Shown here piece by piece: positions 19,953 to 44,561 of a stretch of DNA of 47,486 nucleotides. Positions within the stretch are counted from its first letter, which is position 1; each line of letters begins with the position of its first letter. Source of the DNA: a virus. Under the pieces are notes generated by a model. The model was not told where the DNA came from. It did not search any database and was given only the letters and a program-made list of their open reading frames with translations. The position numbers and the translations under genes are program-made. The stretch spans positions 1-47,486 of IMG/VR virus record IMGVR_UViG_3300024520_000118; one strand, given 5' to 3'.

Positions 19953-22900
19953 TTAGAACGACGAAGTACCGCGTCGGAACTCTCGCTTCAACTGCCCAAC
20001 CACCTGCCGTGCTGTGGCTTCTGGGTTGGATGAGCTGCTGATGTTGATGTCACCGACGTTGACGTTGTTGTTCGTAGTAGTCTGGGCACGGCTGGAAGGA
20101 GCTATGCCCGCGTTCATTGCTTGTAGTTGAGATGCGAACTGGGCCGCATTCTTGGAGTTGGTTACGTGCTCACCACGTTGGAGCATGGCTGGGATACTGT
20201 CCTGTCCTTGGACGGCACCACCGGATGCCCGGTAGAGGAATCCACCAGCGGCACGTTTGGTGGGAGCACCACCACCACCGTTGGCGTTGGCACGGTTCAG
20301 GCGCTCGACGGCTTCGGCAGCGGTGATGGCCTGACGGGCCAGGTTGCCTGCGGCTGTCGCCTCGTTGTTTAAGCCCGTGGCTGCGGCTGGGGCAGCACCA
20401 GCCAGTGTGGCTGTGGCTGTGGCGATGGCCTGGGCGGGTTCAGCGCCCTGTTGGGCGGACTGGACGAAGTTGGCCAGGGCGCCGGCATTGCCAAGCGTCT
20501 CGTCAAATTTGCTCAGGTTCTCTTGGTTCGAGACCAGGAAGTCGACTCTTGCTTGGACTTCCTTCTTCAGTGTCTCGATCTGCTCGAGGCCTTTGGCCGT
20601 TGCTGGGTCATCGCGGTCGAGTAGTTCGCCGAAGTTACCAGAGGCCTTGGCCTGGGTCTCAAGCCGGGACAGTGCCAGTGTGAGTTCACCCAGCTTTGCA
20701 ATCTGCTCGTCCGTGGGGAGGTCGATCAGGCTGGTGGCGTCGAAACCCCCATCATCGGGGTTCAGGTCGGCCAGGGCGTCATAGAAGGGCTTGAAGGCTG
20801 CGACACCACCGCCGAGGAACTCAGGGAGTGTTGCGGTCGCGTTGTCCAGGTCGAACTGCGTTGCCAGGATCTGTTTCCTGAGCGCCTCCATGGCGGACAG
20901 TGCGGTTCCACTGTTGTGACCAACGGCGGAGAGTGCCTTGTTATTCTTATTGACGGCGCCCTCCATGTCCGCGACGTCCTGGAGGCTGAGGCCCAGTACG
21001 CTGCGGACGTCGGCCTGTCTGGCTGTCGTCGCTTGGAGGTCGGTGATCTTCGTCAGGTTGGCTGGGTCCAGTTGCGTGACGTTGATGCCCTTCCCGAAAG
21101 CCTCACCCGCTTTGTACATGCCCTTCTCGAGGGCAGGTATCTCGTCTGTGATCATGGTACGGAGACCGTTCAGGGCGGATGCGTGCCACTGCAGCTTGCT
21201 CGCGTCCTGGAGCGTTTCCAGGTACTGGCGTGCGGTAGCCTTCATGGCCTCGGTCTGATCCAACAGCTTGGTGACGCCCGCGTCGGCCTTAATGCCGTCA
21301 GCGGCTGCTGCGTCTCCCAGCAGTTCTCGGACCTTCTGGCGTCCTTCCAGGGATGCGATCAGTTGCTTCTCGGCGTCGTCCCGGAAACCCTTCCGGCCTT
21401 CTTCACCGAATGCCTTGGCGGCTTCGCGCGATCGTTGGATAGAAAGCTCAATCAGCTCCCAGGCTTGTTGCAGGTTGACTGTGCCGCCCTTGGCGATCAG
21501 GTCGTTGACCTGGGGGATAAGTTGTGCCGCCTCGTTGGCGTCTGCGAGCGCGTTCTGACCCGTAGACTTGCCACGGCGTGACTGGGCGCGTTGCAGATCG
21601 GCGATCTCTTGGGCACCGGATTTGAGGTCGGCTTCCGTGGAGTCGACGATCTTCTGCAGGTCCGAAGCATGGCCCTTCATGCGGCGTAGTTCGGCTTCGT
21701 TCTTGCCGAGGGCCCGGAACAGGTCGCGACCAACGGAGTCGGCGAGGTTCGATGCGATATCGTCCAGGTCCTGGGTAGCGCCGGTCAGCTTGTTCATCTC
21801 GACGACAGACTTGCGGAGTTCGTCGAACTGCCGCTCGAACGCCAGCTTCTCGGCTGCGTTGACGGCCTCGCCGATGCTGTCGACCATACGTTTGTTGGCC
21901 TTCTCCAGCTCGTCGGCGCGGTCTGCTGCGCGCTGACTGGCCTTCGCGTTCTCAGTGTACACGGCGGTGAGGATACCGACAGCGGTGGCGGTGGCGGTCA
22001 CTGCGATCAGGATGGGACTCAGGGCACCGAGGAACGTGGTGACAGAGGCAGTGGCAGTAATGAAGGAACCAGTGATGATTGCGTTGGTGGTGGCGATCAG
22101 TGTGCCGACACCTACGAACGTACCCACAGCCGTAGACACGGTGCCCAGACCGTCATCAACGAAGGAGACGACGGCTTCTACGAGTTGGAAGAAACCGGTC
22201 TTCAGGGGTATCATGGTTTCGGCCATGGCGTCAAAGGCTGCCTGCATACCGGAACGTGCACGCTCAAGCTCTTTAGCCTGGGTGTCGTTCAGGGTCTTGA
22301 AGGCGTCGTCCAGGGTGTTGACCTCACCGGAGATGGCTTCCAGAGCCTTGGCGAGTCCGCCCTTCTCTTGGGTCAGAGCGGTCTGACCAACGGTGGCACG
22401 GATGTTCTTAAACAGCTTGGCGATCTCTGGCAGGTTGCCCTTCTTCAGCTCATCGATCTGCTCGATCAGGGGGATGAATCCACCGGACTTGTTCAAGGCG
22501 TCGGTGATGTCCTCGAAGCCCAACTCGGAGAATGCCTTGCGGATTTCGGGGCCTTCCTTGATCAACTGCTGCAGGACGGATCGTAACTGGGTGACTGCGA
22601 CGGTTGGGGCGTTACCACCCTTGGTCAGGGTTGCCAGTGCGGCACCGACCTCAGAGAAGTCAATACCCAACTGGGCAGCCAGTGGTGAAACACGACCCAT
22701 GGATGTGGACAGTTCGCCCAGAGTGATACGGCCTTGCTCGACGGTCTTGAACAGGGTGTTGGCGAACTGCTCAGATTCGTTGGCAGACTTGCCGTTGGAG
22801 TTCAGGGCGGTTGCCAGTGCGTCGACCGAGTTGGTGACGGAGGTGTTGGTTGCGACTGCCAGCTTCTGTGCGGTCTGGAAGAACTTGCTGTTCTTGGTTG

Positions 22901-23489
22901 AGTCCTTGACCTGATTAGAGAACTGTTGGTACTTGGCGTTCGCAAGGTCCAGAACGTCCAGACCGAAGGTCTTGGCGTCGGCGCGTAGCTCTTTCTGCAA
23001 CTCAGGGGTTGTGAACTGGCCACCAGAAATGGTGGAGGCCTCGGCGACCTTCTTCTCGAACTCGACGACGCGGTCACCGGCTTCACTGATCTGCTGACCA
23101 AGTGCTGCCCAGGCGCGGAGGAGAATCTGGACCTGACCGACGCGGGCCAGGGTCTGCATGGAAGCGGTGACTCCGCCGACTGCGACCTTGGCGTTGTTGG
23201 CACCGTTGGTGATCGTGTTGAACATGGCAGCACCTTGTGCGGCGCGTGCACCCTGAACCAGGTGGCTCAGGTTGGTACCGATACCGGTGGTGGCGAGTTT
23301 CAACTTGTCTGCGTTGCGGGCTGCGTTAGCCAAGGAGCGACCGAGACCGGAGGCAGAGAATTGTTTGGTGGACGTAGCCATCTTGACCAAGGACTGGTCG
23401 ACGAGGAAGAGTGAATTGTTCAATGTATTCAACTGGGCGATGGCACCAGTTGCATCGAATCCGAGTTGTTGTACGATGGGAGAAGTCAT
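19953..23489 (-). CDS. tail tape measure protein (1178 aa)
   Basis: Sets tail length and is delivered through the tail during infection. The N-terminal ~450 residues match the phage tape-measure (TIGR01760-type) family: coiled segments then a block with LAVATNTSVTNSVDALATAL, ELSTSMGRVSPLAAQLG and GAALATLTKGG. Residues ~440-515 form long hydrophobic stretches (TFVGVGTLIATTNAIITGSF and following) suited to membrane insertion. The rest is alpha-helical with coiled coil and an Ala-rich region. The C-terminus has GGFLYRASGG and a GQDSIPAMLQRGEHV motif, frequent at the end of such proteins. At ~0.15 nm per residue, a tail near 170-180 nm is expected. Its start overlaps the upstream stop (TAATG). 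Confidence 0.92.
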   Translation of the reverse strand: MTSPIVQQLGFDATGAIAQLNTLNNSLFLVDQSLVKMATSTKQFSASGLGRSLANAARNADKLKLATTGIGTNLSHLVQGARAAQGAAMFNTITNGANNAKVAVGGVTASMQTLARVGQVQILLRAWAALGQQISEAGDRVVEFEKKVAEASTISGGQFTTPELQKELRADAKTFGLDVLDLANAKYQQFSNQVKDSTKNSKFFQTAQKLAVATNTSVTNSVDALATALNSNGKSANESEQFANTLFKTVEQGRITLGELSTSMGRVSPLAAQLGIDFSEVGAALATLTKGGNAPTVAVTQLRSVLQQLIKEGPEIRKAFSELGFEDITDALNKSGGFIPLIEQIDELKKGNLPEIAKLFKNIRATVGQTALTQEKGGLAKALEAISGEVNTLDDAFKTLNDTQAKELERARSGMQAAFDAMAETMIPLKTGFFQLVEAVVSFVDDGLGTVSTAVGTFVGVGTLIATTNAIITGSFITATASVTTFLGALSPILIAVTATATAVGILTAVYTENAKASQRAADRADELEKANKRMVDSIGEAVNAAEKLAFERQFDELRKSVVEMNKLTGATQDLDDIASNLADSVGRDLFRALGKNEAELRRMKGHASDLQKIVDSTEADLKSGAQEIADLQRAQSRRGKSTGQNALADANEAAQLIPQVNDLIAKGGTVNLQQAWELIELSIQRSREAAKAFGEEGRKGFRDDAEKQLIASLEGRQKVRELLGDAAAADGIKADAGVTKLLDQTEAMKATARQYLETLQDASKLQWHASALNGLRTMITDEIPALEKGMYKAGEAFGKGINVTQLDPANLTKITDLQATTARQADVRSVLGLSLQDVADMEGAVNKNNKALSAVGHNSGTALSAMEALRKQILATQFDLDNATATLPEFLGGGVAAFKPFYDALADLNPDDGGFDATSLIDLPTDEQIAKLGELTLALSRLETQAKASGNFGELLDRDDPATAKGLEQIETLKKEVQARVDFLVSNQENLSKFDETLGNAGALANFVQSAQQGAEPAQAIATATATLAGAAPAAATGLNNEATAAGNLARQAITAAEAVERLNRANANGGGGAPTKRAAGGFLYRASGGAVQGQDSIPAMLQRGEHVTNSKNAAQFASQLQAMNAGIAPSSRAQTTTNNNVNVGDINISSSSNPEATARQVVGQLKREFRRGTSSF

Positions 23490-24754: not shown

Positions 24755-25477
24755 TTAGCTACGGGTGATGACGGGGGAGACAGTGTTGCAACGACCGGAA
24801 ACGACGATGGCGGCATCTCGCAGGGAGACGTCGAAGGACTCGTAACGGAAGTCAGCCAGCAGGGTGGTCTCGTCCTGGGAGGAACCACAGGGAGCGGCGT
24901 GCGCAACTTCGACATCGACGGCGTAAGGCTCGCAGGCGTCAGCAGCGGAAGAAACCCAAGCAGCAGCACCACCGACCTTGTTCAGGGCGTCGTATGGTGT
25001 GATGACTTCGGAAGTACCGGTTGTGATGTGCTCGTAGACAGCGTCAATGTTGACGTCCAGAGGTTGTTGGTCGCCCTCACGGACGGAATCCAAGTCACCA
25101 CGGTCCAGCAGGTACTCGAAGTCCCTGTTCTTGGTCCAGGACAGGTCGCCGTCGCCCAGCTTGATCTCAACCTGCTGAGGCAGGAAGGTGATGACGGAGT
25201 CATCGGCAGAGATGGAGGTGGCGGCGGGGGTGAATGTCAACGTGGCGGGAGTACCGGGCGTGTCAACGGCGGTAACGGTGTAGATGGTGGTATCACCAAC
25301 GAGGGTGAAACGGGCACCAACGGGAACGTCTGTGGCGAGGACAGCGTTGGTAGCAACGGTGTCCAAAGCGACAGTGGTGTCGGAAACGGCAACGCCAGCG
25401 ACGTCATTGACAGCGGCGGTACCAGCGAAGCCATCCTTCAGGGTGATGACGGCGTCGCGTAATTCGATTCTTGCCAT
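24755..25477 (-). CDS. major tail tube protein (240 aa)
   Basis: Probable structural subunit of the tail tube. The start MARIELRDAVITLKDG has GGAG upstream; the longer frame beginning at 25741 is a chance extension over the next gene. The protein is beta-rich, with an Ig-like ~70-residue insert (VGARFTLVGDTTIYTV, TLTFTPAATSIS) followed by the tube core (QVEIKLGDGDLSWTKNRDFEYLLDRG, split here for length) and a paired-strand end (FDVSLRDAAIVVSGR). Position directly before the chaperone supports the call. A stable hairpin after the gene fits high expression. Confidence 0.72.
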   Translation of the reverse strand: MARIELRDAVITLKDGFAGTAAVNDVAGVAVSDTTVALDTVATNAVLATDVPVGARFTLVGDTTIYTVTAVDTPGTPATLTFTPAATSISADDSVITFLPQQVEIKLGDGDLSWTKNRDFEYLLDRGDLDSVREGDQQPLDVNIDAVYEHITTGTSEVITPYDALNKVGGAAAWVSSAADACEPYAVDVEVAHAAPCGSSQDETTLLADFRYESFDVSLRDAAIVVSGRCNTVSPVITRS

Positions 25478-25508: not shown

Positions 25509-25997
25509 TTAGTTGGAAACGTACATGGTGTACGAACAGGTGACGGCGAGTTGGCGAAGGCGGTCTTCGCGGTTGATCTCGCCAAAGTGGTGGACCTTGA
25601 CACCCCCATCGGAGGAGTCGGTGAAGCGTAGACAGCCGATGGCAGAACCATCATCGTCAACGCCCAGGCCATGCTTGAGTACGGGAATACTGGCGGACGC
25701 CTCTGCCATCTTCCCGGCGATCTCTGTCCCGGCGTACGCATTATCAGCAGCGTCGCCCATATGGGAGAAAATCATAACGTAGGTATCAACCTTGAATCGG
25801 TAATACCCTGCACTCACTTCAGTGACGTGCGGACCATTCACGCGGATCTCACAGCGGTTTTCCGCTTCCTGAAACGCGGTGGTTCGTTCCTCTAACTCTT
25901 CCACAAGCGAGGCGTAACCTTCGGAGTTGGCTACTGTTTTGAAATGGTTGGCAACACTGGACTGCACCCAGCGGGGCCAATTCGAATTGTAAGCCAT
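25509..25997 (-). CDS. tail terminator-like protein (162 aa)
   Basis: A connector-region protein between the neck genes and the tail tube. Starts MAYNSNWPRWVQSSV with AAAGG upstream. It has an N-terminal helix then beta strands (CEIRVNGPHVTEV, YRFKVDTYVMIF) and a C-terminal strand (LAVTCSYTMYVSN), the alpha/beta order of tail terminators. Position immediately upstream of the tube gene is typical. Identification is by position and shape, not by a diagnostic motif. Confidence 0.5.
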   Translation of the reverse strand: MAYNSNWPRWVQSSVANHFKTVANSEGYASLVEELEERTTAFQEAENRCEIRVNGPHVTEVSAGYYRFKVDTYVMIFSHMGDAADNAYAGTEIAGKMAEASASIPVLKHGLGVDDDGSAIGCLRFTDSSDGGVKVHHFGEINREDRLRQLAVTCSYTMYVSN

Positions 25998-26069: not shown

Positions 26070-26360
26070 TTATCGTGTTGGTGTTTCGGGGGTGTTGTCC
26101 CAGCCTGAGACCAGGGTGGTGGCTTGGGCGTGGGTCAGGTATGCGGCGCGGGCGCCGTCCTTGTGGTTCTCGACGAGGTTGGCGATCATTGTGGGTACCT
26201 GCCTGGTCTCGTAGCGGAGTAACAGCAGGGCCCCGTCTGGAGACTTGCGGCACTTGTCCTCTGTATCTAAGAACCCGTTGCGCCGCGTGATTCGGGAATC
26301 GAGCGCGGCGGATGTTTTCAGGACCACGTAGGTTCTGTGGTCCCAACGGCTGGATGACAT
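26070..26360 (-). CDS. hypothetical neck-region protein (96 aa)
   Basis: Unrecognised 96-residue protein starting MSSSRWDHRTYVVL, with AAAGG upstream. It has a mixed alpha/beta look and many charged residues, no membrane segment. It starts 14 nt after the 2073-residue gene ends, followed by 72 nt without a gene before the tail terminator-like gene. Likely a minor connector or non-structural assembly factor. Confidence 0.6.
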   Translation of the reverse strand: MSSSRWDHRTYVVLKTSAALDSRITRRNGFLDTEDKCRKSPDGALLLLRYETRQVPTMIANLVENHKDGARAAYLTHAQATTLVSGWDNTPETPTR

Positions 26361-26374
26361 AGTATGCCTTTCTA

Positions 26375-29300
26375 TCAGACGCCGAAGCGTCCGCGTTGTT
26401 CGCCGTACAGCGCCCAGATAGCGGCGGTGGGCGCGACGTCGTTGTAAGTGGTGATACGTCCGGTACTACCTTCCCAGTTACGACCTGTCGTTGGCTCCCA
26501 GGCTGCGACGGTGATGTCGTCGATAGAGGGTTCCAGAGGACCGGTACGGTTGGTGACCGAGTCGAGCAGGATACCGTCGAGGTAGATGTGCATCTCACTG
26601 CTGGTACCGAGTGTACCGTCTGCAGTGAAGGAGAGCATGTGCCACGTGTTATCCAGGATGCTGTTGATGTTGATGGCGGTGGTGTAGTTCAGCGAGGCGA
26701 TGCTGGCGCCAGCGAAGGCTACACGTGCGGCAAGGGTTGAGGCTACATATTCAAGTGTCCAGGTGTCGGTGTGGTTGGCTATAACCTGAAGACCACCATG
26801 GTATAGGGCCTTGACCCACATGTTGACCGTCAGCTTGTCAGTGATGGCGAAGTCAGATGAGTATGGGACCGTACCATAACTGGCGTTGTTAGCACCGGAC
26901 CAGGCCAACTGACCACCGTCAGGGGTGGTATGTACTGGTGAGCCAAACAGGGTACAGTCGTTGGCATTGGCAGAGGAGTCGGCCCAGAGGGTACCCACGG
27001 GTGCAACTGCTGCGTCGAGGTCGAGGAGTGTTGGGGCCACGGTGTCGTTGATACCGTAGCGAACCTTCTCCTTGTTGAAGTCTTCCAGGATCGTTGCGTC
27101 GGAGAGCGTGGATTGCTGGAATTGGAACATGCCCAAGTCACCGTTGACGTAGCTGCCGCCGCCGAATATACCACGGTGCATCAGGTATAGGTCTGTCATG
27201 GCGTAGTTGTTCGCGGCGACTGAGTTCGTCCCGGCGAGATGGCCGTTGATGTAGAGGGAGAACGAATTGGTAGTCGAGTTGAAGGTCATCGTGTAGTGAT
27301 ACCACTCGTTCGACTCGAGCCGGTTGGCAGGTGATTGGATGTATTCCCAACCAGCAGTAGTGTCATTCATGTAAGCCCTCAACGTACTTCCACTTCCGTT
27401 GAAGTATAAGGCTGGGTCGGAGTCTTGGTCGAATTCTACTGCCATGGCGGCAGTTGATACATTGTGGTTTCGCAGCCACATCTTCATGGTGAAGTCACCA
27501 GAGAGACCACCAAAGGTCGTGTTGTTTTTAAGACCGTCGTTGACACCGTCGCACGCCCAGAAGGCACCACCGACGTCGGCGGTTGGGGTGCTGAATGTTG
27601 GTGTTCCGGTGTAGTCCAGGTAGGTGCCGTGGGAACCAGGGAGGCCTTGGGCTTCACCCAGGTCTCGGACCTGCGTTGATAACCCAACGCCACCACCCTC
27701 AGCCGAACGGAGACGACCTGCGTCGAACCACGCCTTGGAGTTGGTAGTGTCTGGCTCGTAGTTACCACGACGGGCATCGAAGTCTTCTTGGATCTGGAGG
27801 GCGGTCAGTACGCCGTCGAAGGCGGCGGCATATTGCAGCTCGCAGTTTAGGTGGTCGGACGTAGAGGATACACCGGAGCGGAGCGCGCCTAGGGCGAACT
27901 CTGCTGCCGTGTTATTCATCGTGAGGCCCATAGATGTGGCGCTGTTATCCAGCATACCGTTAATGAATATCTGGCCATTACCATCGCCGTCCAGCGTGGT
28001 GGCGACCTGGTACCACTGACCGTAGCTCAGTGTGGTTGCTGATATGACAGACGACCAGGACGTACCATCGTTGACCCAGAGGTAGATTTTCTTGTCTGCT
28101 GATCTGTGCTGTACGATCCACTCACGGTCTGAGTCAACGTAGTTGGTCTTACCCATGATCGTACCATAGGCATGCCCAGAGCCCATGATTCGGACCCAGG
28201 ACAGGGTTGAGAATGTGGCGTCTCGGAAAGTCGTTACGAGTTGATCGTCGTCGACTGCGGCGTCGTTGACACCGTCGAACGTGACCTCACCGCTGTTGTT
28301 AGACGTGAATACGGGACCACCCTCAAGTGTGATATTCGCGGTACCGACCCGGTCGTTCCAGGTTGTGGCTGCGGCGCCAGCGTAGGATGCGGTGTTGGTT
28401 GCGTCGTACTCGACAACCTTGGTGGCGACTTTATATAGCTTTTTCTCAGATTTGAAGTTACGCGCGACTTCGTCGGCGGTCAGTGCCTTGCCATAGTACA
28501 GACGTGCGTTACCGGTCTCACCAGTTCTGTAGTGAGCGGAGCCTGCCCTTCTACCGAAGTAGAGCTGGCGGGCATTGGAGGCTTGGGACGCGGCGGTACC
28601 TGCGGAGGCAGTGGATACCAGTTCGCCGTCAACGTATAGTTCCAGGTTACCATCACGGTCTGCGGAGAGCACCAGGTGATGCCACCTAGAGTCGACAAGG
28701 TTAAAGGCGTCGGTACCGTCACCATAGGTGGGGTCCTGGCCGGGACCGAAGTCCACACCGTACTGTGATGACGCGTTACCGTAGATGACACGGGCTCCGT
28801 TATTACAACCGTAGGTTGCGCCACCCATACCAAGCATCGCGCCCGAACGGGGGTTGGAACCGGTGTCGAGCCAATCCATGTAACCTAAATCCCAGCCGGG
28901 GTTGTATTCTGCGGTTTGCCTGCCCCAGACTTCCATGGTGTAGTCCTGACCTGTACCGTCGAACTGAGTGTTCCACTGGGCGTTCTCGGGGATGTAGGTG
29001 TAGGAGCTGGTTCCGTCCAGGACGTAGCCCTGTTCGCTGACGGTCGCACCGCCGATGAGAAGACCGTTGTTTTGGTTGGTCGCTTGGTCATAGATTGTGG
29101 TGCCTGAAGCCCAGGTACGCCAGTCGTGCCAGAGGGAGACGTTCTCGCGGAGGGGTGCCAGGTAGTGGTCCTTGTCGACGAGGAAGTTCTGTTCAATAGA
29201 CGTGGCACCAAGTGCGAAGTCGTACATACGACAGGCTGCCCAGTCACCATTGATCCAGTCCCAGCCCGTGGTGTTACCCATGAACTTGACGATGTCGGTG

Positions 29301-32300
29301 TTGTAGGTGACGGCCACCCCTGTGCTGGTCGTTGCAGCCAGGGTACCGTCGATGTAGAGTTTGTGGTCGGCGCCATCGAAGGTGGCGGCAACGTGCACCC
29401 AGTAGTCGTCAAGACCTGCGGTGTCAGCATGGACACCCTCGGCAGAGTTCCAGGTGTTCTTACGCCCGGAGATGTTCTGAGTCCCGCCCGTGGCGTCCAT
29501 ACCATAGGTAATCTTACAACCCGTGGTATCGGTTCCAGAACCGAACGCACCCATGAGACCATAGGTGACATGGGACCGTACACGTATCCAGATTTCTCGG
29601 GTGTAGTTGGCAGTCAGCAGGGAGGCATTGCCGGTACCGGGGAGGGTCAGGTAGTCGTTCACGCCGTCAAAGGTCAGGTATTTTGCACCAGTGGTTGGGT
29701 CTATACGCAGGGCGTCCTCGCCAAGACCGCTGGTCTCCAGTCGTTGCGTCGTGTCGGCTGCGTCTTGAGCGTTGGGGAGTTGGTAGGTAGAGCTACCAAT
29801 ATCCCAGGCCAGTGCGCCGGTTCTGGTGTTCCAGTCTGCGAGCAGCCCGTAGGGGACGTAGGTGCTATCGAAGCGTTCCTTGTCAACATCGAAGTTTTGG
29901 ACGACCTCGGAGGGGGTCAGGGCGGTGTGGTACATACGCATGACACCGATACGTCCAGTCCAGAAGGTGCCAGTTGTGCCACGGCGACCAAGGACCATAC
30001 CAGATGCGTTGTCGATGTTGGCGGTTGAACCCATGGACTTACGGGCTTCCTCGACACCGTCGATGTAGATAATGGCATCGCCGTCACGGTCGACGGTCAT
30101 GAGAAGATGGTGCCACTTCCAACCGTAGGTCAGGTCGGTACCGTTAGAGCCGTCACCGTAGGAGGGGTCAACACCTGAGCCGAGGTCAACACCGAACTGA
30201 TCGGCGTTACCAACGACGGCGCGGGCTTGGCCCGTGTCCCCGTAGAGGGAACCGGAAATACCGAGGCGGAAACCCGTTCTGGGGTTGTCAGCTTCGATGA
30301 AGTTGTCAATGACGGGGAGGTCCCAGTTGCCAGCCGTGTCGGAGGCGTCGCGACGGACCCAGGCTTCAACAGTGAAGTCGGTTGCGGTGCCCATGTCGGC
30401 CCAGGAGGGGGCGTTCTCAATGGCCATGAACGTGGAGGTACCATCCAGGTTGAATGAACCTTCGCCAGGCGTGTTAATGTCTTCCCAATCAACGGTACCG
30501 AAAATTGTTGCGTCGTTACCGTTGCCAGAGAGGTCAGACCACGTGTTGCCTGTACCACCGTAGGAAGAGGCGTCGCCTGCGTCCAGGTGGATGACGGAAC
30601 CAGAAACGAGCGTCCCACCACCTTGTCCAACCTTCTGGACGGAACCAGAGGCTGTCAGGGAGAGACTGTCGCTGGCTGATCGGGTGCCGACCAACTCGCG
30701 GTGCGAGACGTCACCTTGTAGAACCAGTGCGTTGTTGGCAGTACGGGGGCCACCGACGTGGGCGCGGGTGGCGGATTGAATCAGGGAGAGTGTATCGGAG
30801 CCTGTGAGACCGAAGACCTTTTCGATGGAACCGGACTGCGTCAGGACCAGTGTAGCAGATGTGGTCAGGGTGGCGACCTTGTCGGCGTTGGCGCTAGCAG
30901 TCAGGGCCAGTGCGTCGGAGGCAGTCAGGGACTGAACCAGGGAGACGCTGGCGGCGTCGGTCATGGCGAGTGCGTCAGTGGCAGTCAGAGACTGAACCAG
31001 GGAGACGCTGGCGCTTTGAGCAACAACCAGGGCGTCGGCTGCGGATCGGGCGGCGACCTTGTCGGCGTCAGCAGTCTGCGTGACGGACAGGGTGTCGCTG
31101 GCGCTGAGTCCGAAGCCCAGGTCAACCATATTGTCTTGCGTAACAACCAGGGTGTCGGCACCCGTCAGGGCGCGGTCATGGTTGCGGTCGGCAGTGTCGG
31201 CCAGACTCAGTGAGTCGGTAGCCGTTGTGGATGCGATGTAGACACGGGCACCGGAGTCTGTCAGGACCAAGGCATCGGAACCGGTCAGGCTCAGGCCCAG
31301 GCTGATGTCACCGGACTGCGTGAGGCTCAGGGTATCGGATGCCGTGATGGCACCGAAGGTCTTGTTCAGTACGTTGCTGTCCGTGACGGTCAGGGTGTCG
31401 GCACTGGTGCGGGCGCGAGAGACAGACAGGGCGGCAGTGTCGGACAGGGACAGGTTGCTGGTTACCGTGAAGTTGGAACCCAGACTGACGACGTTGGACT
31501 GACTCAGGGCCAGGGCGTCGGATGTGGTCAGGGAAGCGACCTTGGCTGCGTCTGCGGACTGGGTGACGACCAGGGTCCCGGAACCAGTCAGGGACTGAAC
31601 CAGGGCGATGTCACCGGAGTCGGTCAGGGCAAGGGTACCGGATGCGGACAGGATGGCGACCTTGTCGGCGTTGGCTGCCTGGGTGATAGAGACGACGCTG
31701 GAACCGGTCAGTGCGCTAGACTCACTTGTGAGGCCAGAGTGACTCAGGGACAGGGCGTCAGAGGCTGTGATATTTCGGGTCAGGCTGGCAGAACCAGACT
31801 GCGTGATGGTTAGGACCTCGGCGTCACTACGTTTGGCATCAAAGGCGCGCACCCCCTGTTGCGTGACGGCGAGGGGAGAGTCAGCAGTGGTGAAAGTGTT
31901 ACGGACGACGTCACCCAGGTCGCCTTGTAGGACGAGGCTATCGTCGGCGGTGATGGTGGCAACGTAGGTACGTGCAGCCGTATGCGTGATGGCTGTGGTA
32001 CTGCTCGCAGTCAGGATGCGTTCCAAACCTGTACGCAGAGCCTGATCAGCCAGGCCGACGATGTCGGTAGCCGTCAGTTGCTTGACGCGGTTGGAGACGA
32101 TTGCACCGGAGTGGTCCAGGGAGATCGTGCTGGAGCCGTAGAGGAAGTATTGAGGAGTTGTCGTAACGGGCGAATCGGAGACATCAGCACGTACAGCCGT
32201 GAGGGTCCAGGGTGAGCCGAACTTGCTGGGACTGATGCTATGGATGTCGAAGCGGTCGCCGTCGAACTCGACCCAATCGTCATTCTCGATCTCGTAGCCT

Positions 32301-32596
32301 GCGGGGAGGTCCCGAGGATCAATGAGGAAGTTCCATGTGGACCGGTCGTAGAACGCACCGTACATGAACTCTTTACCAGAGTCAACCTGAGACGCGCCTT
32401 GCGTCTGGGACCGCTTGGTTTTGGCTGGAATGACAACAGCACGTTTGATAGTTGTAGACGTAGAAGAGGAGGACTTGACACCGGTCAGGAGATCGGTAGT
32501 TTCAGTGCCTTGCTTAACCAGAACAATGGTACCACCGTAGAGGCGCTTCAACTGGTAGATGGGTGCGCGGTTGGTGCGCTTACGATAGTTCGCCAT
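26375..32596 (-). CDS. giant neck-anchored display protein: stopper-like domain, 25 beta repeats, six LamG domains (2073 aa)
   Basis: Residues ~1-140 are a paralogue of the adjacent 143-residue protein: IYQLKRLYGG versus IYQLKRLHGS, KEFMYGAFYD versus KQFMYGGFYD, FLIDPRDL versus FLIDPAEL, and similar strand ends. Residues ~155-655 hold about 25 tandem repeats of ~20 residues, consensus near SDxLxLTQSGxxxxxxxLTA. Residues ~666-2073 hold six LamG/concanavalin A-like modules of ~190-250 residues, recognisable by WSDLSGNGNDAT-, FDGVNDYL-, WVHVAATFDG- and MRMYHTALT-type blocks. LamG folds bind glycans or host surface molecules. By its first domain the protein should join the head-tail connector, giving a neck whisker or collar. 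GAAAGG precedes the start. No catalytic motif seen. Confidence 0.78.
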   Translation of the reverse strand: MANYRKRTNRAPIYQLKRLYGGTIVLVKQGTETTDLLTGVKSSSSTSTTIKRAVVIPAKTKRSQTQGASQVDSGKEFMYGAFYDRSTWNFLIDPRDLPAGYEIENDDWVEFDGDRFDIHSISPSKFGSPWTLTAVRADVSDSPVTTTPQYFLYGSSTISLDHSGAIVSNRVKQLTATDIVGLADQALRTGLERILTASSTTAITHTAARTYVATITADDSLVLQGDLGDVVRNTFTTADSPLAVTQQGVRAFDAKRSDAEVLTITQSGSASLTRNITASDALSLSHSGLTSESSALTGSSVVSITQAANADKVAILSASGTLALTDSGDIALVQSLTGSGTLVVTQSADAAKVASLTTSDALALSQSNVVSLGSNFTVTSNLSLSDTAALSVSRARTSADTLTVTDSNVLNKTFGAITASDTLSLTQSGDISLGLSLTGSDALVLTDSGARVYIASTTATDSLSLADTADRNHDRALTGADTLVVTQDNMVDLGFGLSASDTLSVTQTADADKVAARSAADALVVAQSASVSLVQSLTATDALAMTDAASVSLVQSLTASDALALTASANADKVATLTTSATLVLTQSGSIEKVFGLTGSDTLSLIQSATRAHVGGPRTANNALVLQGDVSHRELVGTRSASDSLSLTASGSVQKVGQGGGTLVSGSVIHLDAGDASSYGGTGNTWSDLSGNGNDATIFGTVDWEDINTPGEGSFNLDGTSTFMAIENAPSWADMGTATDFTVEAWVRRDASDTAGNWDLPVIDNFIEADNPRTGFRLGISGSLYGDTGQARAVVGNADQFGVDLGSGVDPSYGDGSNGTDLTYGWKWHHLLMTVDRDGDAIIYIDGVEEARKSMGSTANIDNASGMVLGRRGTTGTFWTGRIGVMRMYHTALTPSEVVQNFDVDKERFDSTYVPYGLLADWNTRTGALAWDIGSSTYQLPNAQDAADTTQRLETSGLGEDALRIDPTTGAKYLTFDGVNDYLTLPGTGNASLLTANYTREIWIRVRSHVTYGLMGAFGSGTDTTGCKITYGMDATGGTQNISGRKNTWNSAEGVHADTAGLDDYWVHVAATFDGADHKLYIDGTLAATTSTGVAVTYNTDIVKFMGNTTGWDWINGDWAACRMYDFALGATSIEQNFLVDKDHYLAPLRENVSLWHDWRTWASGTTIYDQATNQNNGLLIGGATVSEQGYVLDGTSSYTYIPENAQWNTQFDGTGQDYTMEVWGRQTAEYNPGWDLGYMDWLDTGSNPRSGAMLGMGGATYGCNNGARVIYGNASSQYGVDFGPGQDPTYGDGTDAFNLVDSRWHHLVLSADRDGNLELYVDGELVSTASAGTAASQASNARQLYFGRRAGSAHYRTGETGNARLYYGKALTADEVARNFKSEKKLYKVATKVVEYDATNTASYAGAAATTWNDRVGTANITLEGGPVFTSNNSGEVTFDGVNDAAVDDDQLVTTFRDATFSTLSWVRIMGSGHAYGTIMGKTNYVDSDREWIVQHRSADKKIYLWVNDGTSWSSVISATTLSYGQWYQVATTLDGDGNGQIFINGMLDNSATSMGLTMNNTAAEFALGALRSGVSSTSDHLNCELQYAAAFDGVLTALQIQEDFDARRGNYEPDTTNSKAWFDAGRLRSAEGGGVGLSTQVRDLGEAQGLPGSHGTYLDYTGTPTFSTPTADVGGAFWACDGVNDGLKNNTTFGGLSGDFTMKMWLRNHNVSTAAMAVEFDQDSDPALYFNGSGSTLRAYMNDTTAGWEYIQSPANRLESNEWYHYTMTFNSTTNSFSLYINGHLAGTNSVAANNYAMTDLYLMHRGIFGGGSYVNGDLGMFQFQQSTLSDATILEDFNKEKVRYGINDTVAPTLLDLDAAVAPVGTLWADSSANANDCTLFGSPVHTTPDGGQLAWSGANNASYGTVPYSSDFAITDKLTVNMWVKALYHGGLQVIANHTDTWTLEYVASTLAARVAFAGASIASLNYTTAININSILDNTWHMLSFTADGTLGTSSEMHIYLDGILLDSVTNRTGPLEPSIDDITVAAWEPTTGRNWEGSTGRITTYNDVAPTAAIWALYGEQRGRFGV
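30601..32134 (-). repeat. tandem 60-nt coding repeats (about 25 copies)
   Basis: DNA encoding the 20-residue beta repeats of the 2073-residue protein. Copies recur with a period close to 60 nt and recognisable blocks such as GTCGGAGGCAGTCAGGG-like plus-strand strings, but they have diverged, with few identical copies. The reading frame is kept throughout. Confidence 0.8.
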
Positions 32597-32617
32597 CTTG
32601 GGTTTGCCTTTCGGGTG

Positions 32618-33049
32618 TTAGGAGATATCTGCTGCGATGCCGTCGACTTCCCAGATGGAGTCGAACTCGGATTCGCGAATGTCCTTGACGTCGTAACGGA
32701 CGTCGTCAAAAACGATGTAGTCATCAATCGCGATCTCAAACTCGTGAGTGAGTTCTGCAGGATCGATGAGAAAGCGTACGTTGTCGTGGTCGTAGAAACC
32801 GCCATACATGAACTGCTTACCGGAGCCGGTCATTGCGGTTGTCTGGGTTTGATTTCTTGTAGTCAGTTGGGGGAGGACGATGCAGCGAGGGATCGTCACT
32901 TCCAGGGGTTTCTTGTAGTGCTTCTTGCCTGTGGTGAGGTTTACCGAACCAGCGGAGAGTCGGAAGAGGGTGACAGTTGAGCCGTGGAGGCGTTTCAACT
33001 GGTAGATGGTCGCCCGGTTCCGGCGTTCCAAGTTTCGGTTAGTTGTCAT
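32618..33049 (-). CDS. head-tail stopper-like connector (143 aa)
   Basis: A small connector protein, likely the head-tail stopper. It follows the coat gene region, is of usual stopper length, and has the beta-rich layout of the family (VTLFRLSAGSVNLTTG, then FMYGGFYDHDNVRFLIDP and the YIVFDDVRYDVKDI strand pair, similar to phage head-tail joining proteins). Its paralogue forms the N-terminus of the giant protein downstream. AGG lies before the ATG, 8-9 nt away. Assignment as stopper rather than adaptor rests on order, because the adaptor is the 180-residue gene upstream. Confidence 0.6.
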   Translation of the reverse strand: MTTNRNLERRNRATIYQLKRLHGSTVTLFRLSAGSVNLTTGKKHYKKPLEVTIPRCIVLPQLTTRNQTQTTAMTGSGKQFMYGGFYDHDNVRFLIDPAELTHEFEIAIDDYIVFDDVRYDVKDIRESEFDSIWEVDGIAADIS

Positions 33050-33440: not shown

Positions 33441-34850
33441 TTAGCCGAGCAGCAGCGTGGCGAGTCGGTTGTCGAGGACAGCGACACCAGCCAGCAGGTC
33501 CAGAACAACTTTGGTGCCCTGAGCGTCGATGTCGTACTGCATCGTGGCGCGCATGGCGATGTTGTTGTGGGAAGCGACGAAGGATCGTGCACCGAAAGCG
33601 TTCTCAGGCTGGGCCAGAGGACGGGAGATCAGGGCGACGGAATCGCGCTGGAAGCAAGCGTTGAAGTCACCAGCGGGGCCGGGGAAGCAAGCGTCGTCGT
33701 TAGCGATGGCGGCGTCCAGAGGACGGTCCAGCAAGACAACCGTATCGGTGGAACCGTTGGACAGAACCTCGATGACGGAGTAGACGTGACGCGTACCTGG
33801 GGTGGAACCGAAGGCAACCAACTGACCCAGAACCAAGTTCTTACCGGCGGCGTGACCGTCGATGGAGATGGACTTGGCGTACTGAGCGGCAGCGGCACCG
33901 TTGACGGCGGCAGCCTTGTAGACGGTGGCGACGGAAGAACCGGCGACGTCGTACTTCAGGGCTTCGTTCAGGGTAACGGCGGAGGTGTTGCCAGCGGCAA
34001 CAGTGGAAGCGGTAGCCCAAGAAGGCTGAGCGTTGTCAGCCAAGACGACGAACTCACCAGCGGCGACTTCGTGGCCCGTGAAGGCAACGGCCAAGGAACC
34101 GGTGTCACCAGCGGAGGCGGCGGGAGCCGTACCAGCCAGGGAGTCACGCAGGGAAGCGTCGGCGGAGATACCGTTGACGTTTTGATCCATGTAGGTATTG
34201 AAACCCAGGATACGGCCCAAGCGGGCTTCGGTCAGAGCGGAACCACCGTCACCACGCTCATCGGCTTTGATGAACAGGTCGTTGGACAGCATGGCGGTCT
34301 CGGAACCGGGAGCCAGAACCATCTGACGGCCAGACAGGGAGGCCAAGTTGCGGTTCAGTCGCTCACGTGCGGCCAGGACGAAGTCCTTGGCGTTGGAGGA
34401 GGACAGGCCGAGCAGTTTACCAACGCGGTCAGCGGGGGCGCCAAGCAGAGCGTGAGCCATTCGGCCCAGGATTGCGCGGTCGATACCGTTGGCGATGGAC
34501 TTCAGGGCGGGGACCAAGTGGATGGCGATCAGGTCCTGCATGGACTTGGAGCCTTCACCGTCTTTGATGACGAAGCCGGTGTACATGTGCTGGTCCAGGG
34601 GGACTTGGACGTTGGTCAGGATGGCGTCATTGTAAGAAACGACGTCGGCGTCGGTCTTACGGTTGACGGTCATGTCACCGGGCTTACGGGTGTTGACGAC
34701 GTCACCGAAGGCAGCGATCTCGGAAGAGAAGTCGCGGTGGATCAGGTTACCCATGACCATGTTCTCTTCGAGAACGGCGATGGACTCGCGGGCCCACAGC
34801 TCTGGGATCAGAGCGTCGTTGTTGTTGGCGAAAGTAGCGAAGTTCAACAT
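33441..34850 (-). CDS. major capsid protein, P22 coat-like (469 aa)
   Basis: Main shell protein. The N-terminal part matches the P22 gp5-like coat family (HK97 fold): VLEENMVMGNLIHRDFSSEI, AFGDVVNTRKPG, TNVQVPLDQHMYTGFVIKDG and the spine helix SMQDLIAIHLVPALKSIANG. Residues ~250-390 form an insertion (I-domain-like or decoration-anchoring), and the chain ends with MRATMQYDIDAQGTKVVLDL. TAGGAG precedes the ATG. The scaffold gene is directly upstream and a hairpin follows, both usual for coat genes. Confidence 0.88.
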   Translation of the reverse strand: MLNFATFANNNDALIPELWARESIAVLEENMVMGNLIHRDFSSEIAAFGDVVNTRKPGDMTVNRKTDADVVSYNDAILTNVQVPLDQHMYTGFVIKDGEGSKSMQDLIAIHLVPALKSIANGIDRAILGRMAHALLGAPADRVGKLLGLSSSNAKDFVLAARERLNRNLASLSGRQMVLAPGSETAMLSNDLFIKADERGDGGSALTEARLGRILGFNTYMDQNVNGISADASLRDSLAGTAPAASAGDTGSLAVAFTGHEVAAGEFVVLADNAQPSWATASTVAAGNTSAVTLNEALKYDVAGSSVATVYKAAAVNGAAAAQYAKSISIDGHAAGKNLVLGQLVAFGSTPGTRHVYSVIEVLSNGSTDTVVLLDRPLDAAIANDDACFPGPAGDFNACFQRDSVALISRPLAQPENAFGARSFVASHNNIAMRATMQYDIDAQGTKVVLDLLAGVAVLDNRLATLLLG

Positions 34851-34900: not shown

Positions 34901-35716
34901 TCAGAAGGTGCGGCGGTTGGGGTCCAGGCCAAGGGCGCTGGGGTTCGACTTGCGCAGTTGCATGTACTGCTCAGTGGTCAGTTTGGTGTGGTCGACGGCA
35001 GAACCGTCCCCGATGCTTCCATCGGTAGCAGAGGTGGAGCCCATTCCTTCGCGAATGTTATTCTTGAAGAAGTTGCCCCATTTCTCTGGAGACTTTTTCA
35101 TGTACGCGACCGCTTCAGTGGGCGTCATTTGAAGCGTCTCGGTAGCACCATCAGTGTTGACTTTCATCTCGACCATGGGGACCAACCGACCAGTGGCCTG
35201 GTTGTTGTCCGTCATCTCTTCGACGAGACGGGTGTTACTTTGCAACTGCGTAATGATCTGGTTAGGGTTGAAGGCATCGTGCTCGATTGCGGCACTCTGC
35301 AAGGCTGTGGAAATGGAAGTATCGGTGTAACGATCTTCCCAAATCTTTTTGTCGGACTGGAGCTGCTCGATCTGTCGCTCGTAGCCGGTCTTGGCCTCTT
35401 GGGCTTCGAAGGCTGCCTGTTGTTCCTTTGTGCGGAACTGGGCGCGGAGATCGTTCAGTTGTGATTCGAGGTTGGAGCGCTCGTCACCTTGAACAGTGCT
35501 GTTGTTCAGCAGTTCTTGGTAGGAGGTTTCCAAAGAAGTGTACTTGTCAGTGTGCTTGCGCCTGTCGTCGGCCAGGAACTTGTTGACTTGCTCTTGACTG
35601 AATGCCTTGGGGCCGGGGTCAGCGCTGGGAGCAGGATCGTTGGTGGGCTCAGGTGCAGGCTGAGGCTCATCGAAACAAGCGGTGGGGACAAAAGCGGCGT
35701 AAGTAAACTTGGACAT
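34901..35716 (-). CDS. capsid scaffold protein (271 aa)
   Basis: Internal scaffold needed for procapsid assembly. It has the usual traits: just upstream of the coat gene, a proline-rich acidic N-terminus (PAPEPTNDPAPSADPGPK), a long coiled coil (~45-135, with SNLESQLNDLRAQFRTKEQQ), and a charged C-terminal helix region. The ribosome site is GGAGG with 6 nt spacing. No protease motif is seen, so removal from the head probably does not involve self-cleavage. It has one cysteine near the N-terminus. Confidence 0.8.
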   Translation of the reverse strand: MSKFTYAAFVPTACFDEPQPAPEPTNDPAPSADPGPKAFSQEQVNKFLADDRRKHTDKYTSLETSYQELLNNSTVQGDERSNLESQLNDLRAQFRTKEQQAAFEAQEAKTGYERQIEQLQSDKKIWEDRYTDTSISTALQSAAIEHDAFNPNQIITQLQSNTRLVEEMTDNNQATGRLVPMVEMKVNTDGATETLQMTPTEAVAYMKKSPEKWGNFFKNNIREGMGSTSATDGSIGDGSAVDHTKLTTEQYMQLRKSNPSALGLDPNRRTF

Positions 35717-35794: not shown

Positions 35795-36337
35795 TTAGGA
35801 AACGCGAGATATGCGGATATGGTCGCCGTCAAGCAGGAAGGGGCGCAGGTTACGCCAAGCAGTGGCCGAGGGGACACCGTTGACGATGTGCTGTGGGGCT
35901 TCCTGGTTGCGGTCGTAGACCGTGGTCGTGCCACCGATTGAGTGACGTGCAACGGCCAAGTTCTCCATCTCCAGGTCAGGGTCAACCCCGTCCAGGAGAG
36001 AGTAGGCGATTTCGTAGCAGGCGTCTAGGATGGCATCAGGGGTAGAAGCGTCAGTACCTCTGGGGAACTCCAGGGCCTGACTGGCCTCGGCGGCGCGGAC
36101 AGTGACCAGTGCGTCGGCATCGCCTTGGGCGGCGAGGTTCTCCAGGGTGTTGTCGGCGAGGAAGGCGTCGTTGACGGCCTTCTTGACACCTTTGAAAGCC
36201 AGCCGGTCAATAATGGCGGTGGCGGCGTAGATGGAGTTCTGCTGGTCGGTGGCGCTCGAGAGGGACCATGCCGTTTCATGTAAGCGCGTGTCGAAGTAAG
36301 TTTGTGCCTCAACGACGGAAGCGTAGGCGTTTGGCAT
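35795..36337 (-). CDS. head-tail adaptor protein (180 aa)
   Basis: Binds under the portal and closes the head. It matches the DnaT-like/head-tail adaptor family common in phages: opening AYASVVEAQTYFDTRL, helix IYAATAIIDRLAFKG, EFPRGTDASTPDAILDACYEIAYSLLDG (here in part), then GIPSATAWRxLRP-like VPSATAWRNLRPFLLD and ending IRISRVS. AGGA precedes the ATG. Order scaffold-coat after it rather than before is slightly unusual but seen in other phages. Confidence 0.78.
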   Translation of the reverse strand: MPNAYASVVEAQTYFDTRLHETAWSLSSATDQQNSIYAATAIIDRLAFKGVKKAVNDAFLADNTLENLAAQGDADALVTVRAAEASQALEFPRGTDASTPDAILDACYEIAYSLLDGVDPDLEMENLAVARHSIGGTTTVYDRNQEAPQHIVNGVPSATAWRNLRPFLLDGDHIRISRVS

Positions 36338-36426: not shown

Positions 36427-39420
36427 TTATGGCGCAAGGTTGACAATATCGCCCGAATTCATGTTGAACATGGTCAGGAGGTCATAGTCAGCAGTCGAAG
36501 ACTCGTTGACTTGGTTGCGCAGGTTGGGATATGCGTCATTTGGACCGTCTCCCATGACCCAAGCATGGGTAATGGATGCGGTGCCCAGGGACTGGGCTGT
36601 GGGGTCCAGAGTCATGTTACCCAGGGTGGCGACTTCGGCGGCAGTCAGGACACCATCGTAGATGCACTGGCGGTAGATCCAGCCCTTCCACTCCTTGTTG
36701 GTGGCGCGCTCGGTGCCTGAGTTGAACTCGTTGTCAGCCAGGCCGGCTGACCAACCATCGTTCTTCATAGTCCAGACACCTGTCTGACCGATGGCATCGT
36801 CATCTGTCCAGGAAGTGTTGCGGTTGTTACCACTGGCAGATCCGTTGCCGGTCAGTTCCCAGGTGGTTCCGGCAACTGCCAGGTCCTTGACGTAAATCTT
36901 GAACCGTTGGTAGTAGTCCTGCAGATTGGCTGAATTAGAACCGGTGGTGCCACCGTCATAGGTGACCGTGATGTGGTACCAGTTCAGATTGTCGAACTCG
37001 TCGCCTTGGGACTTGAACTCCAGCTTGGCGTCCTTGCCGCCGTAGCGGAAGAAGAAATCCTTGGCTTGGTGACCGCAGCCGACACCACCGGAGGATTTCT
37101 CAGGCTCGCCGTAGCCCCAGAAGTATTTCTTACCGTTGCCAGTATCATTGCGGCGTACGACTGAAGAGACAGACCATGAGTCGCCGACGCCAGAACCGTT
37201 AGAGGCGCGGGCCAAGGGGAAGGAGGCGCCCATGGCGGCGTTACAGGCGCTGTAGTCGTTGGAGCCATCGTAGTAGATGGACTTGGTGCCAGCGGAGAAG
37301 GTGACCTCGTAAACGTTGATGGTCAGGTTGACCGTTGTGATACCATGTGGGTTGGCAGCGGAGACACTGACGACGTATTGGTCAGGGGTGCCTGAGGATG
37401 GCGTTCCGGCGTAGGCGGGAGCCGTACCAAGAAGCTGGCCAGAGGTCTGACTTGCAACGAGCCATGCGGGCAAGTTGGTGAAGGACCACATTGTAACGAG
37501 GTCGCTACCAGGGTCCAGGACCATGGTGTAGTTTATGGGGTCAGTTTCGTCAGCGTCGAAACTCTGCGCCGTGAGGTCAGGTGCGAGTGCGGATGGTGTT
37601 CCACCGCCGGTCTGAGTGAACAGGCCGTTCAGGACGTTGACGACGTTTGCCAGTGTCTGATCGACAGGGGCGGTACCGTCAATGGTGACGTTGGTAGGAT
37701 CGATGTTACTGATCTGGATACGGTCGGAAGAACTTTGGATGATACCGACTGTGAGGCCATCGGCGTAAGCCTGGATGGTGTTGACGGGGTAGTTGTTGAA
37801 CAGTGTGCCCGTGTCCGATTCTTTCAGGATGATGGTGGTTGCCGTCTCATCGATGGAGGCATCAAGGCTGACCGCGTTAGTGTGCTGGTTGGAGTAAGCC
37901 ATTTCGTACCAGTGACCGGAACCTAACTGGGATACGTTCTGGATAGCAGTATCCGTGTACCGCAGATCACCCAGGGTCAGTCGGACCGAGTCGAGGTCGG
38001 CAGTGTTCTCGATGGCGTAGTCGTGTTTGTGGAAACCAACATTGTCGATGTTGATCAGGCAGCGGGTCTTGTCGTTGATGTTGGAGATGGTTGAGTCGAT
38101 GTGGAGGCCGACACGCGTTGTGGCGGCTGCCAGTGTGGTGTTGTGCACCTGACAACCGAGGACATCGATGATGAAACCGGCGGAGTTACGGATGGAGTCA
38201 CCGGAGATGTCGATGGCGGCTGTCGCGTCAGCGTTGTTACCGATACCGTTGAAGGCAGACCTGTTGTTGTCGGCCATATCCAAGTTACGCAGACGACTGT
38301 CTGATGCGTGTTGGATGGTGGCACCACCGTTCCAGTTACGCTTGACGACGTTGCGGCTGAGGATGTTGTTCTGGCCACCGATCATGAGCATGCCGTTATT
38401 GGCGTTCTCGGTGCTCGAGTTATCGAAGACTCGGAAGTTCTCACAGCCAGAACCGGCGTTGGGTGTAGCGGCGCCCAAGTAGATACCAGTCTCGACGTTG
38501 TTGTGGGTAGTGTTCCGGGTGATGACGCCCTGGCCACCAATGCCGCAGTCCTGGAGGCGGATACCTCGGAAGTTGTACTCGGCAACGCAGTCCTTGACCG
38601 TGACGATAGCGGTATTCTCGAGGCGGCAAGCGCCACCATTTGAGGTGTCGTTACCGGCGTAGAAAGCCTGCAGGTCGACCTGGGATGAGTCGTAGCCGAC
38701 GTCATTGACGGTTTCGGCGTCGAGGGTGAGGAGGCCGTCACCGGTCCAACCGTTGTTTCGGAAGAAGCAGTTGTCGACCAGGACCTCGTCGGCGGAGCGG
38801 ACGAAGATACCATACTGACCGTTGTGGAACTCAATGTTCTGGAACGTCAGGGTGCCTGTTTGAGCGAGGCTCGTACGCTCGAAGACGTTACCGTTGGTGT
38901 TCAGGAAGGTTGCGTAACGAACCTTCGTACCCGTCTTACCAATGAAGGTCAGGGACATGTTGTCAGGAAGTACGATGGGTGCGGTGATGACAAAGTCACC
39001 CTCGATGCTGATCGTGTCGCCAGCAGTGGCGGCGGCAATACCGTCAGCGAGGTTATTGAAGGGGAGGTCCTGCGAGCCCGTGGGGAACTGCGTTGCTGCG
39101 CTGGACTGGACGTAGATGGTGGGGATGGAGTCGCTGAACAGGACGTTGCCAATGTCGTTGATGTAGGTGGCTGCCGCTGCTGCGGAACCGAAAGCGACAC
39201 CGTCCGCGTCTGTGAACTCGCTGTAGTGGATGTTGAAGAACTCGTAGAACTTCGTACCGTCAGTCAGGTTCTTGGACTGGATGTCGTTGATGACGTTGAT
39301 CAGATCGGGGGAGGCCTGGACGACTTCTGCGGAGAGGCACGCATTCCAGTACGTGGGCTGAGACGCACCTTCGAAGTTGATACAGTTACCGTCCGAGTTA
39401 CGTTTGACTTTGAAAGCCAT
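36427..39420 (-). CDS. head-module spike/fibre: beta-helix, Ig-like and LamG domains (997 aa)
   Basis: A large surface protein. Residues ~1-110 form a unique N-terminal domain. Residues ~110-510 are a right-handed parallel beta-helix of the pectate-lyase type: repeated short strands with Asn/Gly turns (DLPFNNLADGIAAATAGDTI start, then rungs such as NVVKRNWNGGATI). Such helices occur in tailspikes that bind or cut polysaccharides. Residues ~630-720 look like a putative Ig/cadherin-type domain (PAWLVASQTSGQLLGTAP). Residues ~725-950 are a LamG-like module (YDGSNDYSACNAAMG; NWYHITVTYDGG). Placed between portal and adaptor genes, it suggests a capsid or vertex fibre. No active-site residues can be assigned. 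Confidence 0.72.
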   Translation of the reverse strand: MAFKVKRNSDGNCINFEGASQPTYWNACLSAEVVQASPDLINVINDIQSKNLTDGTKFYEFFNIHYSEFTDADGVAFGSAAAAATYINDIGNVLFSDSIPTIYVQSSAATQFPTGSQDLPFNNLADGIAAATAGDTISIEGDFVITAPIVLPDNMSLTFIGKTGTKVRYATFLNTNGNVFERTSLAQTGTLTFQNIEFHNGQYGIFVRSADEVLVDNCFFRNNGWTGDGLLTLDAETVNDVGYDSSQVDLQAFYAGNDTSNGGACRLENTAIVTVKDCVAEYNFRGIRLQDCGIGGQGVITRNTTHNNVETGIYLGAATPNAGSGCENFRVFDNSSTENANNGMLMIGGQNNILSRNVVKRNWNGGATIQHASDSRLRNLDMADNNRSAFNGIGNNADATAAIDISGDSIRNSAGFIIDVLGCQVHNTTLAAATTRVGLHIDSTISNINDKTRCLINIDNVGFHKHDYAIENTADLDSVRLTLGDLRYTDTAIQNVSQLGSGHWYEMAYSNQHTNAVSLDASIDETATTIILKESDTGTLFNNYPVNTIQAYADGLTVGIIQSSSDRIQISNIDPTNVTIDGTAPVDQTLANVVNVLNGLFTQTGGGTPSALAPDLTAQSFDADETDPINYTMVLDPGSDLVTMWSFTNLPAWLVASQTSGQLLGTAPAYAGTPSSGTPDQYVVSVSAANPHGITTVNLTINVYEVTFSAGTKSIYYDGSNDYSACNAAMGASFPLARASNGSGVGDSWSVSSVVRRNDTGNGKKYFWGYGEPEKSSGGVGCGHQAKDFFFRYGGKDAKLEFKSQGDEFDNLNWYHITVTYDGGTTGSNSANLQDYYQRFKIYVKDLAVAGTTWELTGNGSASGNNRNTSWTDDDAIGQTGVWTMKNDGWSAGLADNEFNSGTERATNKEWKGWIYRQCIYDGVLTAAEVATLGNMTLDPTAQSLGTASITHAWVMGDGPNDAYPNLRNQVNESSTADYDLLTMFNMNSGDIVNLAP

Positions 39421-44438: not shown

Positions 44439-44561
44439 AAGTGCTCCAGTTTGTATTGGCCTTGTCGCCTGGGGGAGTGGCACAGTTGGGACGCAGCGGA
44501 TTTCTCAACGCGGTCGCACAGGTGCTGCTCTTTAGCAAGACCCCAGACGACGTGGCGTGGA

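Follow-up and report, generated by a model that had tools for sequence, protein, structure and literature searches.

In tailed phages the stopper, a small ring below the adaptor, shuts the DNA channel and serves as the docking site of the tail. The window (the whole stretch of DNA analysed here, a 47.5-kb virus record that belongs to a tailed phage judging by its genes) appears to encode this protein twice in tandem, once as a bare domain and once as the N-terminal end of a protein of more than two thousand residues. The locus raises the question of whether the two genes are related, how one of them acquired its extension, and where in the particle so large a protein would be placed.

Genome organization

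The head-to-tail genes of the window are all located on the minus strand. They comprise the terminase (42741-44483), the portal protein (40948-42729), the head-tail adaptor Ad1 (35795-36337; phrog_477, E 3.4e-14), which is the expected ring partner above the stopper, the scaffold protein (34901-35716) and the major capsid protein (33441-34850; phrog_283, E 6.7e-59; Pfam P22_CoatProtein, E 8.6e-22). These are followed by the short copy, a 143-aa putative stopper or head-closure protein (Hc1) without the usual C-terminal tail (32618-33049), and by the long copy of 2073 aa (26375-32596); the coordinates and lengths given for both genes in an earlier note on this DNA were exact. A spacer of 21 nt (32597-32617) with the purine-rich, RBS-like GAAAGG separates the two genes. 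In the long copy, the predicted stopper domain covers residues 1-140 (32177-32596), a repeat array residues 152-660 (30617-32143) and a LamG array residues 660-2073 (26378-30619, borders approximate). Further downstream are a candidate tail terminator (25509-25997), the expected ring partner below the stopper, a candidate tail tube protein starting with MARIELRD (24755-25477) and the tape measure protein (19953-23489).

The terminator candidate is located directly after Hc1 in relatives, and Vibrio phage SSP002 has its annotated tail terminator in the matching slot. It had no family match of its own and hhalign against the SSP002 tail terminator gave no signal, so that the assignment remains positional. 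The tail tube candidate was likewise assigned by its position, which is conserved in relatives; it matches twice in tandem in four of them (L006, L007, L018 and L022), where it is duplicated or split. The long copy is separated from the terminator candidate by a 96-aa reading frame (26070-26360); no family match was found for it, and the relatives have nearly no spacing at that place.

Relatives were collected by a capsid-protein search (22 loci), with an Hc1 profile (43) and with a capsid profile (best 80 of 376). The order Ad1, scaffold, capsid, Hc1, tail terminator candidate and tail tube candidate is conserved among them, and Hc1 stands among the head and connector genes, just before the positionally assigned terminator. 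A syntenic terminase-to-tail block was located in a 444-kb contig of a Planctomycetota MAG (L076), which is a lead to the hosts of the phage group. The window also encodes a 997-aa protein with a beta-helix (36427-39420). Its 94-residue N-terminus is conserved and recurs in L011 and in contig 3300002231_003302 (L001/L005) with differing C-terminal parts, which suggests that the head module has another variable appendage gene.

Two stopper copies

Kinship of the 143-aa protein with the N-terminus of the large one, as proposed in the earlier note, was confirmed by BLASTP against residues 1-152 of the latter: 60 of 136 residues are identical (44%) with one gap and 120 bits, and the E-value of 1e-40 rules out chance similarity. 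The blocks that had been named (IYQLKRL, SGKxFMYG, FYD, FLIDP and the end strands) are all present in the alignment. Sequence-family support for Hc1 is weak. The short copy matched phrog_161 (head closure Hc1) in PHROGs with an E-value of 3e-4, and of 16 aligned members three matched this family (best E 9.5e-6); hhalign found no match to the Hc1 of Vibrio phage SSP002, and the A2 profile had no sequence match among PDB chains. The Hc1 identity is thus taken from predicted fold and gene order.

The two N-terminal domains were modelled with AlphaFold2 from 47 aligned sequences, and each model contains one N-terminal helix followed by six strands. The mean pLDDT of the short-copy model was 79.8; for residues 1-140 of the long copy it was mostly 79-96, with the exception of the loop near 61-80. 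The top two Foldseek matches of both models were the Pam3 neck protein 8hdr (E 2.9e-4 for the short and 2.8e-4 for the long copy) and the T1 stopper 9l0e (E 1.6e-3 and 9.7e-5), the latter being the best match of the long copy. Both models also matched SPP1 gp16 (7z4w) and the lambda stopper (8xow). VIA-align returned 29 chains at a Z-score of at least 8 for each model (range 8-11), nearly all of them neck or stopper proteins, including those of lambda, SPP1 (gp16), R4C, T4 and GTA. The short copy reached Z 9-11 to the Pam3 neck protein and the T1, SPP1 gp16 and lambda stoppers, and the long N-terminal domain up to 10.7. Both models have the predicted stopper fold, a beta-sandwich or barrel with a channel loop and the N-terminal helix found in one subgroup. 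Differing folds of the two domains had been named in the earlier note as a result that would refute its proposal; compared via common PDB matches, the folds agree in the main order of elements. The models support the reading of both genes as encoding head-closure (stopper, Hc1) paralogues.

Weaker VIA-align matches of both models included tail-tip proteins. Related beta domains thus recur in other tail proteins, and a collar around the neck exists in Milano (PMC10491603), as would suit an arrangement in which the stopper ring is made up entirely of the short copy, and the stopper fold of the long protein lets it stack as one more ring or a neck collar. The long copy has, however, kept the N-terminal helix and the loop positions typical of a stopper, and we regard a stacked ring as improbable.

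Duplication and selection

The stopper paralogues are most likely the product of one lineage-specific tandem duplication, as judged from sequence comparison. In the DNA examined, where many contigs are fragments, one Hc1 was seen per locus with an Hc1 match, except in the window and in contig 3300002231_003302; some of these genomes may carry another copy outside the fragment. This contig carries both copies, which are 80% (short) and about 75-79% (long) identical to those of the window, and is broken off inside the long gene. No cultured relatives of the Hc1s were found by tblastn in 50,697 phage records, and a first Hc1 scan of genome contigs gave no confirmed match. The four sequences from the window and L001 form one clade with support of 100/97 and 98/95 in two trees. 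Grouping a copy with single-copy relatives instead gave a worse fit (AU p 0.047 and 0.025), by which import of one copy from such a relative is rejected, if marginally. The copies are as distant from each other as from some single-copy relatives (43-44%), and a long-branch caveat weakens the duplication tree.

Fourteen residues are common to the copies and rare (at most 11%) across 106 other Hc1s. Several map to the helix at the N-terminus, to the surroundings of the channel loop and to the C-terminal end of the domain. The fourteen residues probably predate the duplication and were retained in both copies, which suits, and does not prove, that both still face the same partners. Conservation in at least 85% of the relatives was seen at 24 columns, 18 of which are kept in the short copy and 17 in the long one. 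Against L001, the short copy has an NG86 dN/dS of 0.105 and the long N-terminal domain one of 0.18-0.22; with these values both copies look to be under purifying selection and are apparently kept as working proteins.

The intergenic spacer of L001 is 19 nt long and contains the same CACCCGAAAGG as that of the window. Stop-codon readthrough joining the two genes would be in register in the window (21 nt) but not in L001 (19 nt), and is also disfavoured by the own start of each gene, the long one with an RBS-like site. This rejection is not absolute, as L001 has apparent indels.

Repeat array and LamG domains

The earlier note had counted about 25 beta repeats and six LamG-like domains in the long copy, and both counts were reproduced. 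A consensus scan identified 25 units from residue 152 to about 652, with a spacing of nearly always 20-21 residues and the consensus LTASDALSLTQSG; AlphaFold2 predicted the array with low confidence. The LamG array consists of six Pfam Laminin_G_3 stretches (E 5.1e-78; profile score 260.9 bits versus a cut-off of 27.6) and belongs by this score to the LamG/concanavalin A-like lectin family. With approximate borders, the domains are LG1 (29867-30619), LG2 (29147-29866), LG3 (28421-29146), LG4 (27752-28420), LG5 (27041-27751) and LG6 (26378-27040). LG1 and LG3 share 37% identity and the remaining domains are more diverged. Close relatives of LG1-LG2 were sought among viral contigs and none was confirmed. 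As the second two-copy contig ends within the long gene, the LamG part has been seen in a single genome.

In L008 (1142-2179), a 346-aa protein encoded upstream of the terminase likewise consists largely of the 20-residue repeats found in the long copy. In L010 (19115-21424), a LamG-like tail-region protein ends in them, and this combination suggests that the modules are mobile.

An inherited tail

The extension of Hc1s past the domain of about 138 residues has a median length of 26 residues. It often resembles one repeat unit, e.g. VLLDADNALSLTQSND in L006 and ITLDASDALSLDSDGS in L016, and the first unit of the long-copy array aligns to this short C-terminal tail of single-copy Hc1s. Tails were scored with a position matrix derived from the 25 units of the window, with other C-termini as background and 500 shuffles. 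The 95% background level was exceeded by 15 of 44 Hc1 tails (about two expected), and the best seven scored above all 500 shuffles. Two to four units are apparently held in the tails of L019, L115, L129 and L136. Since the tails of single-copy Hc1s are repeat-like, the long copy would continue an inherited tail. At the sequence level, the locus reads better as a long copy that extends the ancestral tail beside a short copy that is the tail-less one. The earlier note is supported on the two paralogues and on the long one being a stopper subunit with an adhesin-like array; its description of one copy having grown needs correction in that the tail is already present in single-copy Hc1s and the short copy lacks it.

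Fusions at the stopper C-terminus

Three other lineages have the only Hc1 seen fused to a different large domain, at the same gene position. In L035 (645-2399) and L037 (9926-11674), Hc1 is joined to a DUF6923 repeat domain, propeller-like in appearance; L033 is identical to L037 across the length of L033. The fusion in L124 (11756-13345, 530 aa) is propeller-like by eye, and its fused domain had no Pfam match. In L144 (14485-16374, 630 aa), PKD and leucine-rich repeats are attached. The terminator candidate is the next gene in each fused lineage, with one small intervening frame in L144. The extra residues number some 300-490 in these three lineages, and the extension of the window, at 1,935 residues, exceeds the next longest (485) fourfold. 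Counting the window's, four separate lineages have more than 300 residues fused past the stopper domain. In a tree of 108 Hc1 domains, many other forks of which are weak, the fused state requires four changes; the same number is forced if the starred branches alone are considered.

The fusions to a single Hc1 in three lineages indicate that large neck extensions need no paralogue. The earlier proposal of anchoring in the connector through a paralogous ring subunit is upheld in that the long N-terminal domain is a stopper paralogue (44% identity, predicted fold), and not in making the paralogue the enabling factor. In the best reading, the stopper C-terminus is a recurrent mounting site for surface-binding domains, of which the window lineage has the largest. 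Recruitment of a stopper domain by an ordinary tail fibre, or by an adhesin absent from the virion, would fit the LamG-like domain with the same repeats in the tail-region protein of L010, but neither the gene position, nor the purifying selection on the conserved domain, nor the fact that four fusions arose independently at one point of one protein agrees with such an origin, which we consider very unlikely.

Proposed arrangement at the neck

Display of the lectin domains at the neck, anchored in the stopper, is the probable function of the long protein. A duplicated stopper gene would have given one copy that kept and greatly lengthened its tail (25 repeats, six LamG domains) and another that lost it. 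The N-terminal helix and beta domain of the long protein, normal for a stopper, would most likely give it a place in the ring. From there the stalk of repeats would carry the lectin domains out sideways at the neck, and the LamG domains would contact host-surface or environmental glycans.

In solved phages the stopper is a hexamer below a twelve-fold adaptor, and the self-contacts of the SPP1 stopper are weak at 510 A2 (PMC9701221). The N-terminal helix of the R4C stopper binds the adaptor (PMC10276861), and lambda gpFII has such a helix (PMC10721106). Weak self-contacts and adaptor-driven assembly would permit two kinds of subunit. The C-terminus of the TP901-1 stopper is predicted at the tail-terminator side (PMC10747895), so that a C-terminal extension could exit sideways. 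SPP1 gp17.1 and its extended form mix 3:1 in the tail tube (PMC8718954). For the window phage, presence of the long protein in virions, its sideways exit, glycan binding and the mixed ring are inferred.

The bare copy most likely occupies the remaining places of the ring, because six subunits of 2,073 residues would be very crowded. The three lineages with fused single-copy stoppers caution against taking a mixed ring as a forced result of crowding, although their extensions reach at most about a quarter of the length of the window's. A ring of short and long subunits is a possibility of slightly less than even chance. That the long protein alone forms the stopper ring, with the short copy in a second, extra ring or another role, is unlikely. 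In its favour, the fused single-copy Hc1s would need to fill their rings alone, and it is the long copy that has the ancestral tail motif and lies next to the tail genes of the cluster. The short copy, however, is equally or more constrained (see dN/dS above) and has kept the conserved helix and loop positions, and a ring of six chains of 2,073 residues would far exceed any other case. Returning to stopper-anchored display, an obligate mixture of bare and lectin-bearing subunits, in which glycan engagement at the neck is mechanically coupled to the DNA gate and aids genome release, is highly speculative.

Comparison with known systems

Neck-mounted carbohydrate-binding modules are already known from the neck passage structure (NPS; PMC6669499), as are decorated ring proteins. 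The NPS of lactococcal 936 and P335 phages (TP901-1) consists of long neck-anchored proteins with carbohydrate-binding modules at their ends, the N-terminal domain being constant and the ends variable (PMC6669499, PMC10747895). The long protein of the window would resemble it in its proposed neck anchoring and in the glycan binding proposed for its ends. The NPS is a separate, non-essential collar protein with a BppU-like anchor domain and coiled coils, whereas the long protein has a predicted stopper domain in place of a BppU-like N-terminal anchor, a beta-repeat stalk and LamG ends.

In fold and gene position both copies resemble the stoppers of SPP1 (gp16), lambda (gpFII), T1, Pam3 and R4C, and their N-terminal helix is also present in the R4C and lambda stoppers. 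The best-matching solved stoppers are mostly chains of about 88-270 residues, unlike the long copy. Tail tube decorations (the extended form of SPP1 gp17.1, lambda gpV and T5 pb6) likewise combine a ring subunit with a C-terminal surface domain. They carry one small added domain on the tail tube, whereas about 1,930 residues are added to the stopper in the window, and the two forms arise by frameshift in SPP1 and from two genes here. LamG-type modules are likewise found in phage structural proteins such as the virion structural proteins of phrog_8510 and phrog_24074 and a LamG-like protein of cyanophage S-PM2; this likeness, compared over the LamG region, is distant and confined to it. A search of the open-access literature, which omits most subscription papers, turned up no stopper described as bearing a large extension for surface binding.

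According to PMC10747895, how exactly the TP901-1 NPS is attached is not known. In the window the attachment would be encoded in the gene itself, the display domain and the stopper forming one chain. That four lineages have independently used this C-terminus, each for a different domain, points to the DNA-gate ring as a general mounting point. Fused stoppers could help to track down further proteins of this kind in uncultured phages, and mixing of subunits in the gate ring becomes testable.
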